From: an uncultured Bacilli bacterium | GTDB lineage: Bacteria; Bacillota_I; Bacilli_A; RF39; UBA660 | Length of the DNA stretch: 32,905 bases | Assembly (NCBI GenBank): GCA_947627435.1 | Contig: CANQWB010000013.1 | Coordinates: forward strand, 1 to 32,905 | Direction of reading: 5' to 3' | In this document: piece after piece, positions 28,222 to 31,555 of the stretch | Layout of the letters: the number at the start of each line of letters is the position of its first letter | How positions within the stretch are numbered: the first letter of the stretch is position 1 | The notes under the pieces: model-generated | Told to the model about the DNA's origin: nothing | What the model saw: only the letters and a program-made list of their open reading frames with translations | The model's database searches: none | Position numbers and translations under genes: made by a program

Positions 28222-28617
28222 ATGAAGAAAAAAGGATTTACATTAATAGAAATGATTGGTGTTGTACTCATTATGGGTTTGCTTACATTACTAATATTAC
28301 CATCAATTGTAAACCAATTAAGCGCCAAAAAAGAAGAGATCAGTCAAGCATCATTAAAGCTAATTTATGATGCAACAGATTTATATGTGAAAGAAAGAGA
28401 AAGTACATATACAATGACAACAGGATCAACCTATTGTATTACATTAGAAACACTAGTAAATGATGGAAAATTAAAAAATACAATAAAAGATTTTACGACA
28501 GAAAAAGAAATTCCATTGAATAAAGTTGTAAAAGTGACAGTGAATGAATATGAAGAGGGAGAATATGTATTAGTCAATTCTGGAGAATGTGAATCGACTA
28601 TTGTGATGGAAAAATAA
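28222..28617 (+). CDS. Type IV prepilin-like protein with N-methylation motif (131 aa)
   Basis: It starts with MKKKG|FTLIEMIGV, a class III prepilin signal: basic leader ending in Gly, Phe+1 and Glu+5, followed by the hydrophobic helix (about residues 6-27). The mature domain is short with two Cys (TYCITLE, GECEST) that may form a disulfide loop. It resembles small type II/com-type or minor pseudopilins and needs a prepilin peptidase (PilD/ComC) encoded elsewhere. The first 30 nt are identical to those of the large prepilin gene at 28964, which points to gene conversion or domain duplication. A decayed glycine-rich domain begins 17 nt after the stop, so this gene may be the intact head of a formerly longer fibre protein. 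Confidence 0.8.
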   Translation: MKKKGFTLIEMIGVVLIMGLLTLLILPSIVNQLSAKKEEISQASLKLIYDATDLYVKERESTYTMTTGSTYCITLETLVNDGKLKNTIKDFTTEKEIPLNKVVKVTVNEYEEGEYVLVNSGECESTIVMEK

Positions 28618-28633
28618 TGCAAATAAAAGATTA

Positions 28634-28802
28634 GCAAAGGAATGGAAATTTACAGTACTATATACTGGAACTCATAAATTAGAAGTATGTGGAGCATAGA
28701 GAGGAAATGCTAATTACGGTGGAGGAGTTATCAATAGTGTTACACAATCAAAATATTGGAAATGAAAAAGCTAAAATTATTTTAATATCAATAGCCAAAT
28801 AA
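28634..28802 (+). pseudogene. Decayed copy of the glycine-rich C-terminal domain
   Basis: The translation FTVLYTGTHKLEVCGA-stop (28649-28699) matches FTVPCNGTYKLEVWGA of the large protein (30851-30898), with about 41 of 48 nucleotides identical by eye. After a stop and a frameshift, GNEKAKIILIS (28758-28790) matches the end of the large protein, GNGKAQITLVSLK. The middle of the domain is missing. This is a broken, internally deleted duplicate lying exactly downstream of the small prepilin. Confidence 0.75.
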
Positions 28803-28810
28803 TATAAGAT

Positions 28811-28842
28811 AAAAAAGAATCTTGAAATATAGATTCTTTTTT
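28811..28842 (+). terminator. Terminator before the large prepilin gene
   Basis: AAAAAAGAATCT and AGATTCTTTTTT form a perfect 12-bp stem around an 8-nt loop. The -35 of the next promoter lies at the top of this stem and in its loop. Confidence 0.85.
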
Positions 28843-28850
28843 GCTATAAT
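28822..28850 (+). promoter_or_regulatory. Promoter of the large glycine-rich prepilin gene
   Basis: TTGAAA (28822-28827), exactly 17 bp, TATAAT (28845-28850). The -35 is within the hairpin of the preceding terminator. The leader to ATG 28964 would be about 105 nt and contains the G8 tract. Confidence 0.75.
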
Positions 28851-28919
28851 TGAGATGTCAAATAAAATCATAGAATAGTTTGCGATAAGTATAGAATTTC
28901 AAGTATGCTATTTGTAAAC

Positions 28920-28944
28920 GGGGGGGGTACTCCCTTTTTTTATT
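28920..28944 (+). repeat. G8 homopolymer with downstream TACT-CCC-T7 hairpin in the leader
   Basis: Eight consecutive G (28920-28927), then TACT, CCC and T7. GGG/CCC plus G-T wobble pairs can form a short hairpin ahead of a T-run, like a weak attenuator whose strength would change with G-tract length. It lies 36 bp upstream of the start codon and is the only G8 seen in this AT-rich window. Confidence 0.6.
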
Positions 28945-28963
28945 GTCTAAAGGAGAGATGTAT

Positions 28964-31555
28964 ATGAAGAAAAAAGGATTTACATTAATAGAATTATTGG
29001 CAGTAATAGTGGTACTATCTGTAATCGCATTAGTGACAGTACCAATGATAGTAGGAGTAGTAGAAAAAGCCAGAATGGGAGCATTCAAAGATAGTGTATT
29101 GGGAGCAATTACAACTATAGATTACTATCTATTAGAAAATAATTTAAGTGAAATACCCGAAGAAGGAATAGAAGTAACAGATTTGGAATTAAAAAATAAT
29201 TCATTAAAATATGGAATGATTACAAAAAATAGTGAAGGCAAAATAGAGGTAGTGGATGTAAGTGATGGAAGATACTGTGCACAAGGAGAGCAAGCAAAAT
29301 TAGAAATATATAAAGGGAAATGTGATTTAACAGTACCAACATGTAAGTTAGAGATAAAAGGAGAAAAAGGAATTAATGAATGGTACGGAAGTAAAGTTAC
29401 AGTAGAAATGGAGACAAGTGAAGCCTTAACAGGAGGACTACAATTTGGAATAGGAAAAGAAGAGAAATATGATAAAAGAGTAGAAAAAGGAAAAAAAGGG
29501 AAAGCAGAGATAGAAGTAGAAGAAAAAGGGAAAATAAGTTGTTATGTAAAGAATGCCGGGAATAAAGCAGGAAGAAATGAAATAGAAGTGAAAATAGATA
29601 GAAGTGAACCAACAGAAGCGAACTTCAGTACAACAACGACAAGTAATAGTATAAAAGTAATAGCGAGAGGAAAAGACGAAGAAAGTGGAATTGTAAGATA
29701 TCAATTCAGTAAAGATGGAGGAGCTAGTTGGACAGAAATACAAGAAAGTGAGATATATGAATTTGAAGGATTAAAACAAGAAGAATATGAAATAAAGGTA
29801 AGAGTATATAATGGGACATATGTAGAGAGAAAGGGAGATAAAAATTTAAAAGCAGAAAGTGAAATTCAAAAAATAAAACCAACTGCAATCAATAATCCAA
29901 GTATAGAACAAACGAGTGCTACAATTGCAACAGGATATACATGGGCGACCAAAAGAGTAATGGAGATAACATATAATCATGAGAATATAACTAACCCAGA
30001 ATACTATTTAAAAAGTAGTGTCACTTCAACAGTAGAGGATGGAGTGATAGAAGGAAGATGTGGAGAAGGGAATACACCAAGTGAATGTAATACAGAAACG
30101 ATAACGACACTACAAGCAAATACATGGTATAAAACAAATCAAGAGACAGTAAGAGTAACATATCAAACGAATGGAGAATTATATGCAGTAACAAGTGATG
30201 GATTAAATATATCAGGGACTGCAACAGCAACCATAGGAGAAACGTCATCAGGGACACCAAGTAAACCCGTGATAACAGGAGGGAACAGTAGTAACTGGTC
30301 AAAAGTAGATATGACAATAAGTGTATCGACAGAATCAAAAGAGGCAAGTGGAATTAAAAAATATCAGTATTACGTAAGTACAAGTAATAGTAGTCAAGCA
30401 GGTGGACAATGGTTAGATTGTACAACAAGTCAAAAGAGTCAAAAGATAACGGTAGAAGGAACAAAATATATTTATTTTAAAGCAATAGCCAATAATGGAA
30501 AGGAAAGCGAAATAAGTGGAAATCAAGTAACGAAAATTGATAAAGGGAACCCAACAGTAAGTGTAAGTGTAAGTGGAAAGATAGCGACAATTACATTAAA
30601 AGATAGTTTAGCGTTAGCGGGCTATCAAGTAACCCAAAACACAAGTACACCATCTAGTTGGACTGCAATAAGTGGAACAAGTGTAAATAAAACATATACA
30701 GCAACAAGTGCAGGTACATACTATGTACATGTTAAAGATGGAGCAGGGAATACAAGTTATACAAATTTTGCGATAGCACAAAATGCATTTTGTGCATATA
30801 AAGCAGGAGATGTAGTAAAAGAATTTGCATATAAAGGCTCAGTAGAAACATTTACAGTACCATGTAATGGAACTTATAAATTAGAAGTATGGGGTGCTCA
30901 AGGCGGTTTAGGTTATAACAATTCTGGAGATAACATGAATAATAGAACACCGCCTAGTGCTGGAAAAGGAGGATATTCTTACGGAAATAAAATATTAACA
31001 AAAAATACTAAATTGTATGTAGTTGTTGGAGGAAGTGGTACTGGTAGTGCTTCAATAGTTAATGGTGGCTATAATGGAGGTGGCTCTAATGCTAGTGGAT
31101 CGTCTGCTTTTTATGGTGGTTCTGGTGGTGGTGCTACTCATATAGCTACAAAAACGGGAGTGTTATCATCATTATCATCTGCAACAGACCGAACGACTGT
31201 GCTAATTGTTGCTGGTGGAGGTGGTGGCTCTGGACAATTTGGAAGTGGTGGTGCCGGTGGTGGGAATACCGGTGGTAGTGGAACCGGAGGCTATTCAAAA
31301 CCAGGTACTGGTGGAGCAGGTGGAGGACTTTCTTCTGGTTATGCATTTGGCATCGGTCAAAATGGGACTTCATATTACGCCGGTGGCGGAGGCGGTGGCT
31401 GGTATGGTGGATATGCTGGTGGACAAGCTGAAGCCGGTGGAGGTGGTTCTGGTTACCTCAATGCAACTTTATTAATTGCAGGAACTACAGGAATGCAAAA
31501 TGGAAAACAATCCGGAAATGGTAAAGCTCAAATTACCCTAGTATCACTTAAATAA
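28964..31555 (+). CDS. Large prepilin-like surface protein with Ig/Fn-like modules and C-terminal glycine-rich domain (863 aa)
   Basis: ATG 28964 follows AAAGGAGAG, so the track start at 28943 is too far upstream. Domains: a class III prepilin leader MKKKG|FTLIELLAV with a hydrophobic helix (about 6-28), a pilin-like region, modular beta-rich segments (about 100-600) with GIVRYQFSKDGG- and GIKKYQYYVS-type strands, and a glycine-rich domain (about 612-863). The last opens with Cys...FTVPCNGTYKLEVWGAQGG and contains long GGG/GSG runs, like the Gly_rich domain family found in surface proteins. It would be processed by a prepilin peptidase and exposed on the cell surface, probably as an adhesin-like fibre tip or minor subunit. 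Codon use changes from A-ending (ATA, AGA, GGA) to GGT/GCT/ACT near 30880. Minus-strand ORFs here are shadows. Confidence 0.75.
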   Translation: MKKKGFTLIELLAVIVVLSVIALVTVPMIVGVVEKARMGAFKDSVLGAITTIDYYLLENNLSEIPEEGIEVTDLELKNNSLKYGMITKNSEGKIEVVDVSDGRYCAQGEQAKLEIYKGKCDLTVPTCKLEIKGEKGINEWYGSKVTVEMETSEALTGGLQFGIGKEEKYDKRVEKGKKGKAEIEVEEKGKISCYVKNAGNKAGRNEIEVKIDRSEPTEANFSTTTTSNSIKVIARGKDEESGIVRYQFSKDGGASWTEIQESEIYEFEGLKQEEYEIKVRVYNGTYVERKGDKNLKAESEIQKIKPTAINNPSIEQTSATIATGYTWATKRVMEITYNHENITNPEYYLKSSVTSTVEDGVIEGRCGEGNTPSECNTETITTLQANTWYKTNQETVRVTYQTNGELYAVTSDGLNISGTATATIGETSSGTPSKPVITGGNSSNWSKVDMTISVSTESKEASGIKKYQYYVSTSNSSQAGGQWLDCTTSQKSQKITVEGTKYIYFKAIANNGKESEISGNQVTKIDKGNPTVSVSVSGKIATITLKDSLALAGYQVTQNTSTPSSWTAISGTSVNKTYTATSAGTYYVHVKDGAGNTSYTNFAIAQNAFCAYKAGDVVKEFAYKGSVETFTVPCNGTYKLEVWGAQGGLGYNNSGDNMNNRTPPSAGKGGYSYGNKILTKNTKLYVVVGGSGTGSASIVNGGYNGGGSNASGSSAFYGGSGGGATHIATKTGVLSSLSSATDRTTVLIVAGGGGGSGQFGSGGAGGGNTGGSGTGGYSKPGTGGAGGGLSSGYAFGIGQNGTSYYAGGGGGGWYGGYAGGQAEAGGGGSGYLNATLLIAGTTGMQNGKQSGNGKAQITLVSLK

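Follow-up and report, generated by a model that had tools for sequence, protein, structure and literature searches.

A repeated leader element with a poly-G terminator arm ahead of surface-type genes in an uncultured Bacilli bacterium: candidate phase-variable attenuators

This locus raises the question of whether a run of eight G residues in the leader of a surface-type gene is a switch and, if so, which step of gene expression it would control. The window, i.e., the whole stretch of 32,905 nucleotides under analysis, is contig C13 of a 1.21-Mb genome in 55 contigs. A preliminary description of the sequence had placed a G8 run, followed by TACT, CCC and T7, between a strong promoter and a ribosome-binding site (RBS), and all of these elements are located at 28822–28955 (Table 1). 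The tract begins 70 bases past the –10 hexamer, in the leader RNA, and is followed by TACTCCC and T7 (28935–28941); as it ends at 28927 and the ATG lies at 28964, it is outside the coding frame. The –35 box, which had been described as lying inside the preceding terminator hairpin, overlaps the loop of that hairpin, as also occurs in at least nine of 30 leader copies (see below). With its T-run, this hairpin probably terminates the transcription unit that lies upstream. Between 27500 and 30000, seven terminator-like rows are present against 0.6 expected from shuffles, six of the seven being registers of one hairpin, the G-tract terminator.

The assignment of the downstream gene to a surface-type class holds: the 863-aa product includes a prepilin N-methylation motif at residues 2–24 (Pfam PF07963, E 2.3e-06) and a C-terminal ALK/LTK glycine-rich domain at residues 635–859 (Pfam PF12810, E 1.6e-26). 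An apparent decayed remnant of a glycine-rich domain (FTVLYTGTHKLEVCGA, with stops) is seen at 28617–28760, between a short pilin-like gene (28222–28617) and the window gene, suggestive of the breakdown of a longer sister gene. The position of the tract between –35 and –10 elements, as in tp0126 or porA, is not seen in the window, and a role of the tract as promoter spacer of the window gene was rejected, there being no suitable –10 hexamer downstream.

Table 1. Positions of the features of the window locus and of related elements elsewhere (C, contig of the window genome)
Feature	Position	Strand	Basis or remark
Hairpin AAGAATCT...AGATTCTT	28815–28838	+	read from sequence
Hairpin plus T-run	28815–28842	+	sequence
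Sigma-70-type promoter TTGAAA-17-TATAAT	28822–28850	+	11/12 matches, TG before –10
Conserved 5' leader motif AATCATARAATAGTTT	28866–28881	+	near-invariant in aligned copies from five genomes
Leader hairpin H1, 3' arm CTATTTGTAAAC	28878–28919	+	fold; layout kept in sister genus
G8 tract, terminator 5' arm	28920–28927	+	shortest among 33 copies
Intrinsic terminator: G tract, TA, CTCCC, T7	28920–28941	+	fold; pairing kept in relatives' interrupted tracts
RBS AAAGGAG	28949–28955	+	sequence
Pilin-like surface gene, 863 aa	28964–31555	+	ATG at 28964
Promoter-spacer poly-G tracts	C12:7473, C4:14001, C4:15238		window genome; G10
Acyltransferase-like ORF tract	L054 1526 (C32:3824)		
Acyltransferase-like ORF tract	L194 1501 (C18:11793)	–	
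CCCCCTCTAAAAGTTGTCTAAAAAAATGATAACATCC-type ends	L012 1400–1490, L026 1–70, L037 1–58, L063 1–110		
CCCCCTCTAAAAGTTGTCTAAAAAAATGATAACATCC-type ends	L247, L263, L271; L189		sister genus; G043
Second promoter-like sites	L010, L013, L018, L019, L031, L033, L035, others		about 20–70 bases past tract

The window tract is one of many. In the 1.21-Mb genome, 41 tracts of at least eight G residues are present, against 0.5 expected from base composition (computed with the window G+C content of 0.298), and the pattern GGGGGGTA occurs 34 times, the reversed pattern only three times. Sorting by hand assigned 33 of the 41 tracts to copies of one leader element, whereas the other eight comprise three in promoter spacers, two in acyltransferase-like ORFs, one on C14 and two on C47, a short, foreign-looking contig. 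The order of the element is AATCATARAATAGTTT, a loop of variable sequence, CTATTTGTAAAC (which is the 3' end of a hairpin), G8–11, TA, a C-run, a T-run and the gene. In all 30 copies that were parsed, a GC stem and a T-run lie between promoter and start codon, and a promoter scoring at least 9/12 is present in 23 of these. Homopolymers far longer than chance would produce stand ahead of these surface-type genes, as in poly-G contingency loci. The preliminary description had considered a switch at one gene; the tract is real, and what was missed is an element repeated throughout the genus.

The genes behind the 33 leaders are 22 type-IV-pilin-like (N-methyl) genes, eight genes of the GFATSAILYT class, two others, beginning MFAEFLVKNEF and MLSITTKSEY, and one that is cut off by a contig end, so that 30 of the 33 copies stand before pilin-like or GFATSAILYT genes. 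Judged by their predicted products, nearly all leader-controlled genes are of the secreted or surface type. The C-terminal tail of several pilin-like proteins is lectin-like and contains hypervariable residues (SGLWNW...GARLIKTN), and in the sister genus g2 the products of the leader genes are secreted and have variable ends resembling these. Such tails (GLW.W...GARLIK) are seen at the C-termini of L053, L056, L060, L062, L063, L065 and L066, and the hypervariable positions within their fixed frame resemble targets of diversity-generating retroelements. Among the downstream genes are paralogues whose 5' ends are nearly identical, as would be expected if the leader had merely spread together with duplicated genes and had no regulatory role. 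That explanation is highly improbable, since the genes behind the leader belong to two unrelated N-terminal classes, with two further genes outside both, and since another genus keeps the layout with a different hairpin sequence.

The leader is present in all five genomes of the genus that were searched. A covariance model gives 36 matches in the window genome and 29, 19, 29 and 16 matches in the four other genomes of the genus (these four relatives are MAGs of uncultured Bacillales/Bacilli), and three weak matches in g2, which has the same layout with a different hairpin sequence; a pure tract is absent from some of the matches. A search for the pattern G7/short loop/C-T arm/T-run through 193 genomes from 148 genera of the family yields matches only in the window genus and g2, the pattern being absent from the 146 other genera. 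The viral contigs searched contain no match, and no Rfam family corresponds to the leader (best E 2–9, all far under the gathering scores).

Several leader copies contain a conserved end (CCCCCTCTAAAAGTTGTCTAAAAAAATGATAACATCC and relatives) inside the loop of the first hairpin, H1. In L063, the inverted form of this end begins from the other half of the leader, and in G043 an end of this type lies just upstream of a poly-G promoter. These ends look like those of an insertion element with subterminal inverted repeats and a preference for these leaders.

The predicted fold of the leader consists of H1 followed by the G-tract hairpin. H1 is formed by GTTTGC/GTAAAC in the window genus and by GTGTGC/GCACAC in the sister genus, where it also directly precedes the tract and where a U-A pair is replaced by G-C. 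This is better evidence for H1 than the tests made within the genus. Shuffling of the H1 arms gives 255.7 pairs on average (sd 2.8, maximum 265 in 2000 shuffles) against 262 observed, a comparison that is weakly informative because the 3' arm is nearly invariant, and pair counts on the alignment alone are not significant.

For the second hairpin, paired changes are found between relatives, in few cases. The interrupted tracts of relatives put A opposite U (GAGGGGG/CCCTC, GAGGGG/CCCCTC, GGGAGGGG/CCCTC and GGAGGGGGGG/CCCTC), and in g2 the TAT/ATA pairing beside the G/C stem has changed once to CAT/ATG. Pairing of the terminator stem is kept through these substitutions, while pair counts from the alignment alone do not reach significance. 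The hairpin had been called weak and terminator-like; the tract does belong to a terminator hairpin, which is real and conserved. The 3' arm is CCCTC in 20 of the 30 parsed copies of the window genome, and the tract is pure G in 20 of these 20, i.e., a perfectly pairing A is never used. This suggests that the purity of the tract exceeds the need of the stem.

These features bear on the main rival explanation, a conventional, regulated attenuator in which a controlling protein or ligand would attach to the 5' motif and H1, and the tract is a stable stem whose length is irrelevant. Such a device would account for the conservation of the 5' motif and the H1 3' arm far beyond the need of a stem, and for those copies in relatives that keep the hairpin despite an interrupted tract. 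It does not account for pure G in all CCCTC copies, given that GAGGG pairs better, nor for tracts longer than the C arm requires. Moreover, 29 of 30 leaders lack a CCC upstream of the tract, and hence a C-run for a competing antiterminator; the only exception is a copy with about 50 inserted bases. On this ground, a competing cis RNA that pairs with the tract was rejected as a means of antitermination. Taking into account also the length data and the other poly-G loci described below, we regard the conventional attenuator as unlikely, with a probability that is not negligible.

In about 12 copies, a further promoter-like site lies between the terminator and the gene. It is accompanied by an inverted repeat (AGTACACTGATAGTGTAT), perhaps an operator, and might let transcription bypass the leader terminator.

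If the tract were a switch, its length should matter. Over the 30 parsed copies and those on C10, C22 and at C33:7009, the lengths are G8 in one copy (the window), G9 in six, G10 in 24 and G11 in two. The window copy and the copy on C35 are identical over 69 bases downstream of the tract and differ in its length, G8 against G10. In eight between-species pairs with similar upstream flanks, the length is equal in six and differs by one in two; two random draws from the length distribution would agree in 58% of cases, and the comparison is therefore neutral on slippage. The narrowness of the range does speak against free switching, unless the assembly consensus masks minority lengths; the comparison covers paralogues and other species. 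Narrow lengths are also what a conventional attenuator would show.

The same applies to the small effect of length predicted from folding. With the window arm, the predicted hairpin energy is –4.3, –8.8, –9.9 and –10.9 kcal/mol for G4, G8, G10 and G12, respectively, and the mean over the 30 copies follows this trend. Below G7 each further G has a large effect; within the observed range it contributes about 0.5 kcal/mol, so that stability alone does not predict an on/off threshold at G8–11. In these folds, every extra G adds one more G.U pair that extends into the U-tract. Loss of mismatch repair as a driver of slippage was rejected, as MutS and MutL are present in the genome, which thus gives no hint of raised slippage.

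Repeats of variable length control surface genes in several other bacteria, and two of these systems suggest further explanations of the leader. In Streptococcus gallolyticus pil1/pil3, a leader peptide is translated whose length varies with GCAGA repeats, and the terminator is opened by the ribosome (PMC3894217). Here too a repeat would control a leader terminator, but it is the terminator's own stem, no leader ORF is preceded by an RBS and the element occurs about 33 times. A published mechanism thus exists for leader-peptide attenuation, in which a short ORF across the tract would shift frame with tract length and the ribosome would open the terminator. The codon preceding CTATTTGTAAAC is ATG or TTG in 28 of 30 window-genome copies; G9 followed by TAA would lead to an immediate stop after the tract, and the frame of the window G8 overlaps the pilin start. 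Yet an ATG-started ORF that crosses the tract and has a Shine-Dalgarno sequence, as a leader ORF of the pil1 type should, is found in 0 of 30 copies. In eight copies of relatives the start codon is replaced by TAA or TAG with the following bases unchanged, unlike coding variation. Translation of the leader is accordingly a very improbable basis of control.

In Helicobacter pylori tlpB, a variable G-repeat in the leader is bound by the small RNA RepG, with a graded effect of length (PMC8295292). The two leaders are alike in having a G-repeat with a C/U-rich pairing partner, but tlpB is a single operon whose partner is a separate RNA, whereas here the partner is in cis, namely the terminator arm. 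A C/U-rich small RNA acting in trans on the tract, as RepG does, would fit the layout of the tlpB leader (PMC8295292), and terminated leaders ending CCCTCTTTTTT, with their C/U-rich 3' ends, could serve as such. A C/U-rich arm in cis, however, already serves the tract as partner, no separate candidate RNA has emerged and Rfam gives no match; we give this explanation little credence.

Three other systems resemble the present one in scale or target. In the tpr surface family of Treponema pallidum, poly-G tracts of 7–11 residues are found, transcription of tprE, G and J requires a tract of no more than eight G, and a tprL reporter is active at G8 and near background at G10 (PMC7864442). There as here a surface-gene family is under poly-G control, but the tpr tract is upstream of the transcription start, within the promoter, whereas the present tract lies in the leader RNA, about 70 bases past the –10. 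In Mycoplasma gallisepticum vlhA, the slipping unit is GAA, placed about 40 nt ahead of the transcription start, and activity is reported at exactly 12 repeats (PMC6258824); many paralogous surface genes are each preceded by their own copy of a slipping repeat, as here, but the vlhA repeats lie outside any terminator. In Moraxella catarrhalis uspA1, a G tract is upstream of the adhesin ORF and expression differs over G8–G12; unlike the present element, it is a single locus, and the available part of that account describes no leader terminator (PMC7302503).

Poly-G tracts at other kinds of sites support the view that the lineage uses such repeats. Besides the three promoter-spacer tracts of the window genome, the two acyltransferase-like ORFs hold G8 and G10, and in both the frame breaks right after the tract. 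In related genera, poly-G promoter spacers of 15–17 nt stand ahead of gene families: one related genome has TTGACA-17-TATAAT close to TTGACA-15-TATAAT, and there G10 yields a spacer of 17 where other spacer bases are missing; another has poly-G spacers of 15 and 16. Because these spacer and ORF tracts occupy classic positions of phase variation, slippage-based switching in the lineage is plausible, if unproven. They also count against a conventional attenuator. Further loci in other genera of the family, L152–L163 (G008), L164–L171 (G040), L172–L180 (G051) and L187 (G046), have poly-G upstream at a fixed place, mostly G8, before many genes and in promoter spacers where these are recognisable; around the tracts of G008 and G040, no clear –35/–10 pair was recognised. 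Poly-G control on the scale of a repertoire may be a trait of the family.

We therefore consider it somewhat probable that the window tract is one of about 33 phase-variable poly-G attenuators that control the surface repertoire. In the proposed mechanism, RNA polymerase would start at the promoter, make a short structured leader (the 5' motif and H1) and then reach an intrinsic terminator in which the G tract forms the 5' arm. Slipped-strand mispairing that adds or removes G would shift the reach of the hairpin, via G.U pairs, into its own U-tract, thereby changing read-through into the pilin-like gene; with about 33 copies, a population of cells with differing combinations of surface proteins could result. 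The earlier proposal of a phase-variation candidate is strengthened to the extent that near-identical copies differ as G8 and G10 and that other classic poly-G loci exist in the genome. Pure tracts, the preserved terminator pairing, these near-identical copies and the poly-G in spacers and ORFs elsewhere point to the attenuator reading; the 24 of 33 copies at G10, the step of about 0.5 kcal/mol per G, the presence of MutS and MutL and the roughly 12 promoter-like sites that might bypass the terminator count against it. What we infer is that tracts slip within a strain, in which direction and how strongly this affects transcription, and that it is used adaptively. The full mechanism, in which the homopolymer is the stem of the leader terminator, each added G takes up one free U in a further G.U pair and about 33 such copies run the repertoire, is proposed tentatively and is to us slightly more doubtful than credible.

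No description of a homopolymer itself serving as terminator stem was found in the open-licence literature that was searched. If the mechanism is true, uncultured gut Bacilli with small genomes would run a large stochastic repertoire of surface proteins by poly-G, and the poly-G device would act on transcription termination, not on reading frame or promoter spacing. Because tract length and C arm vary naturally among the 33 copies, the rule that relates length to expression would be readable from one metatranscriptome.
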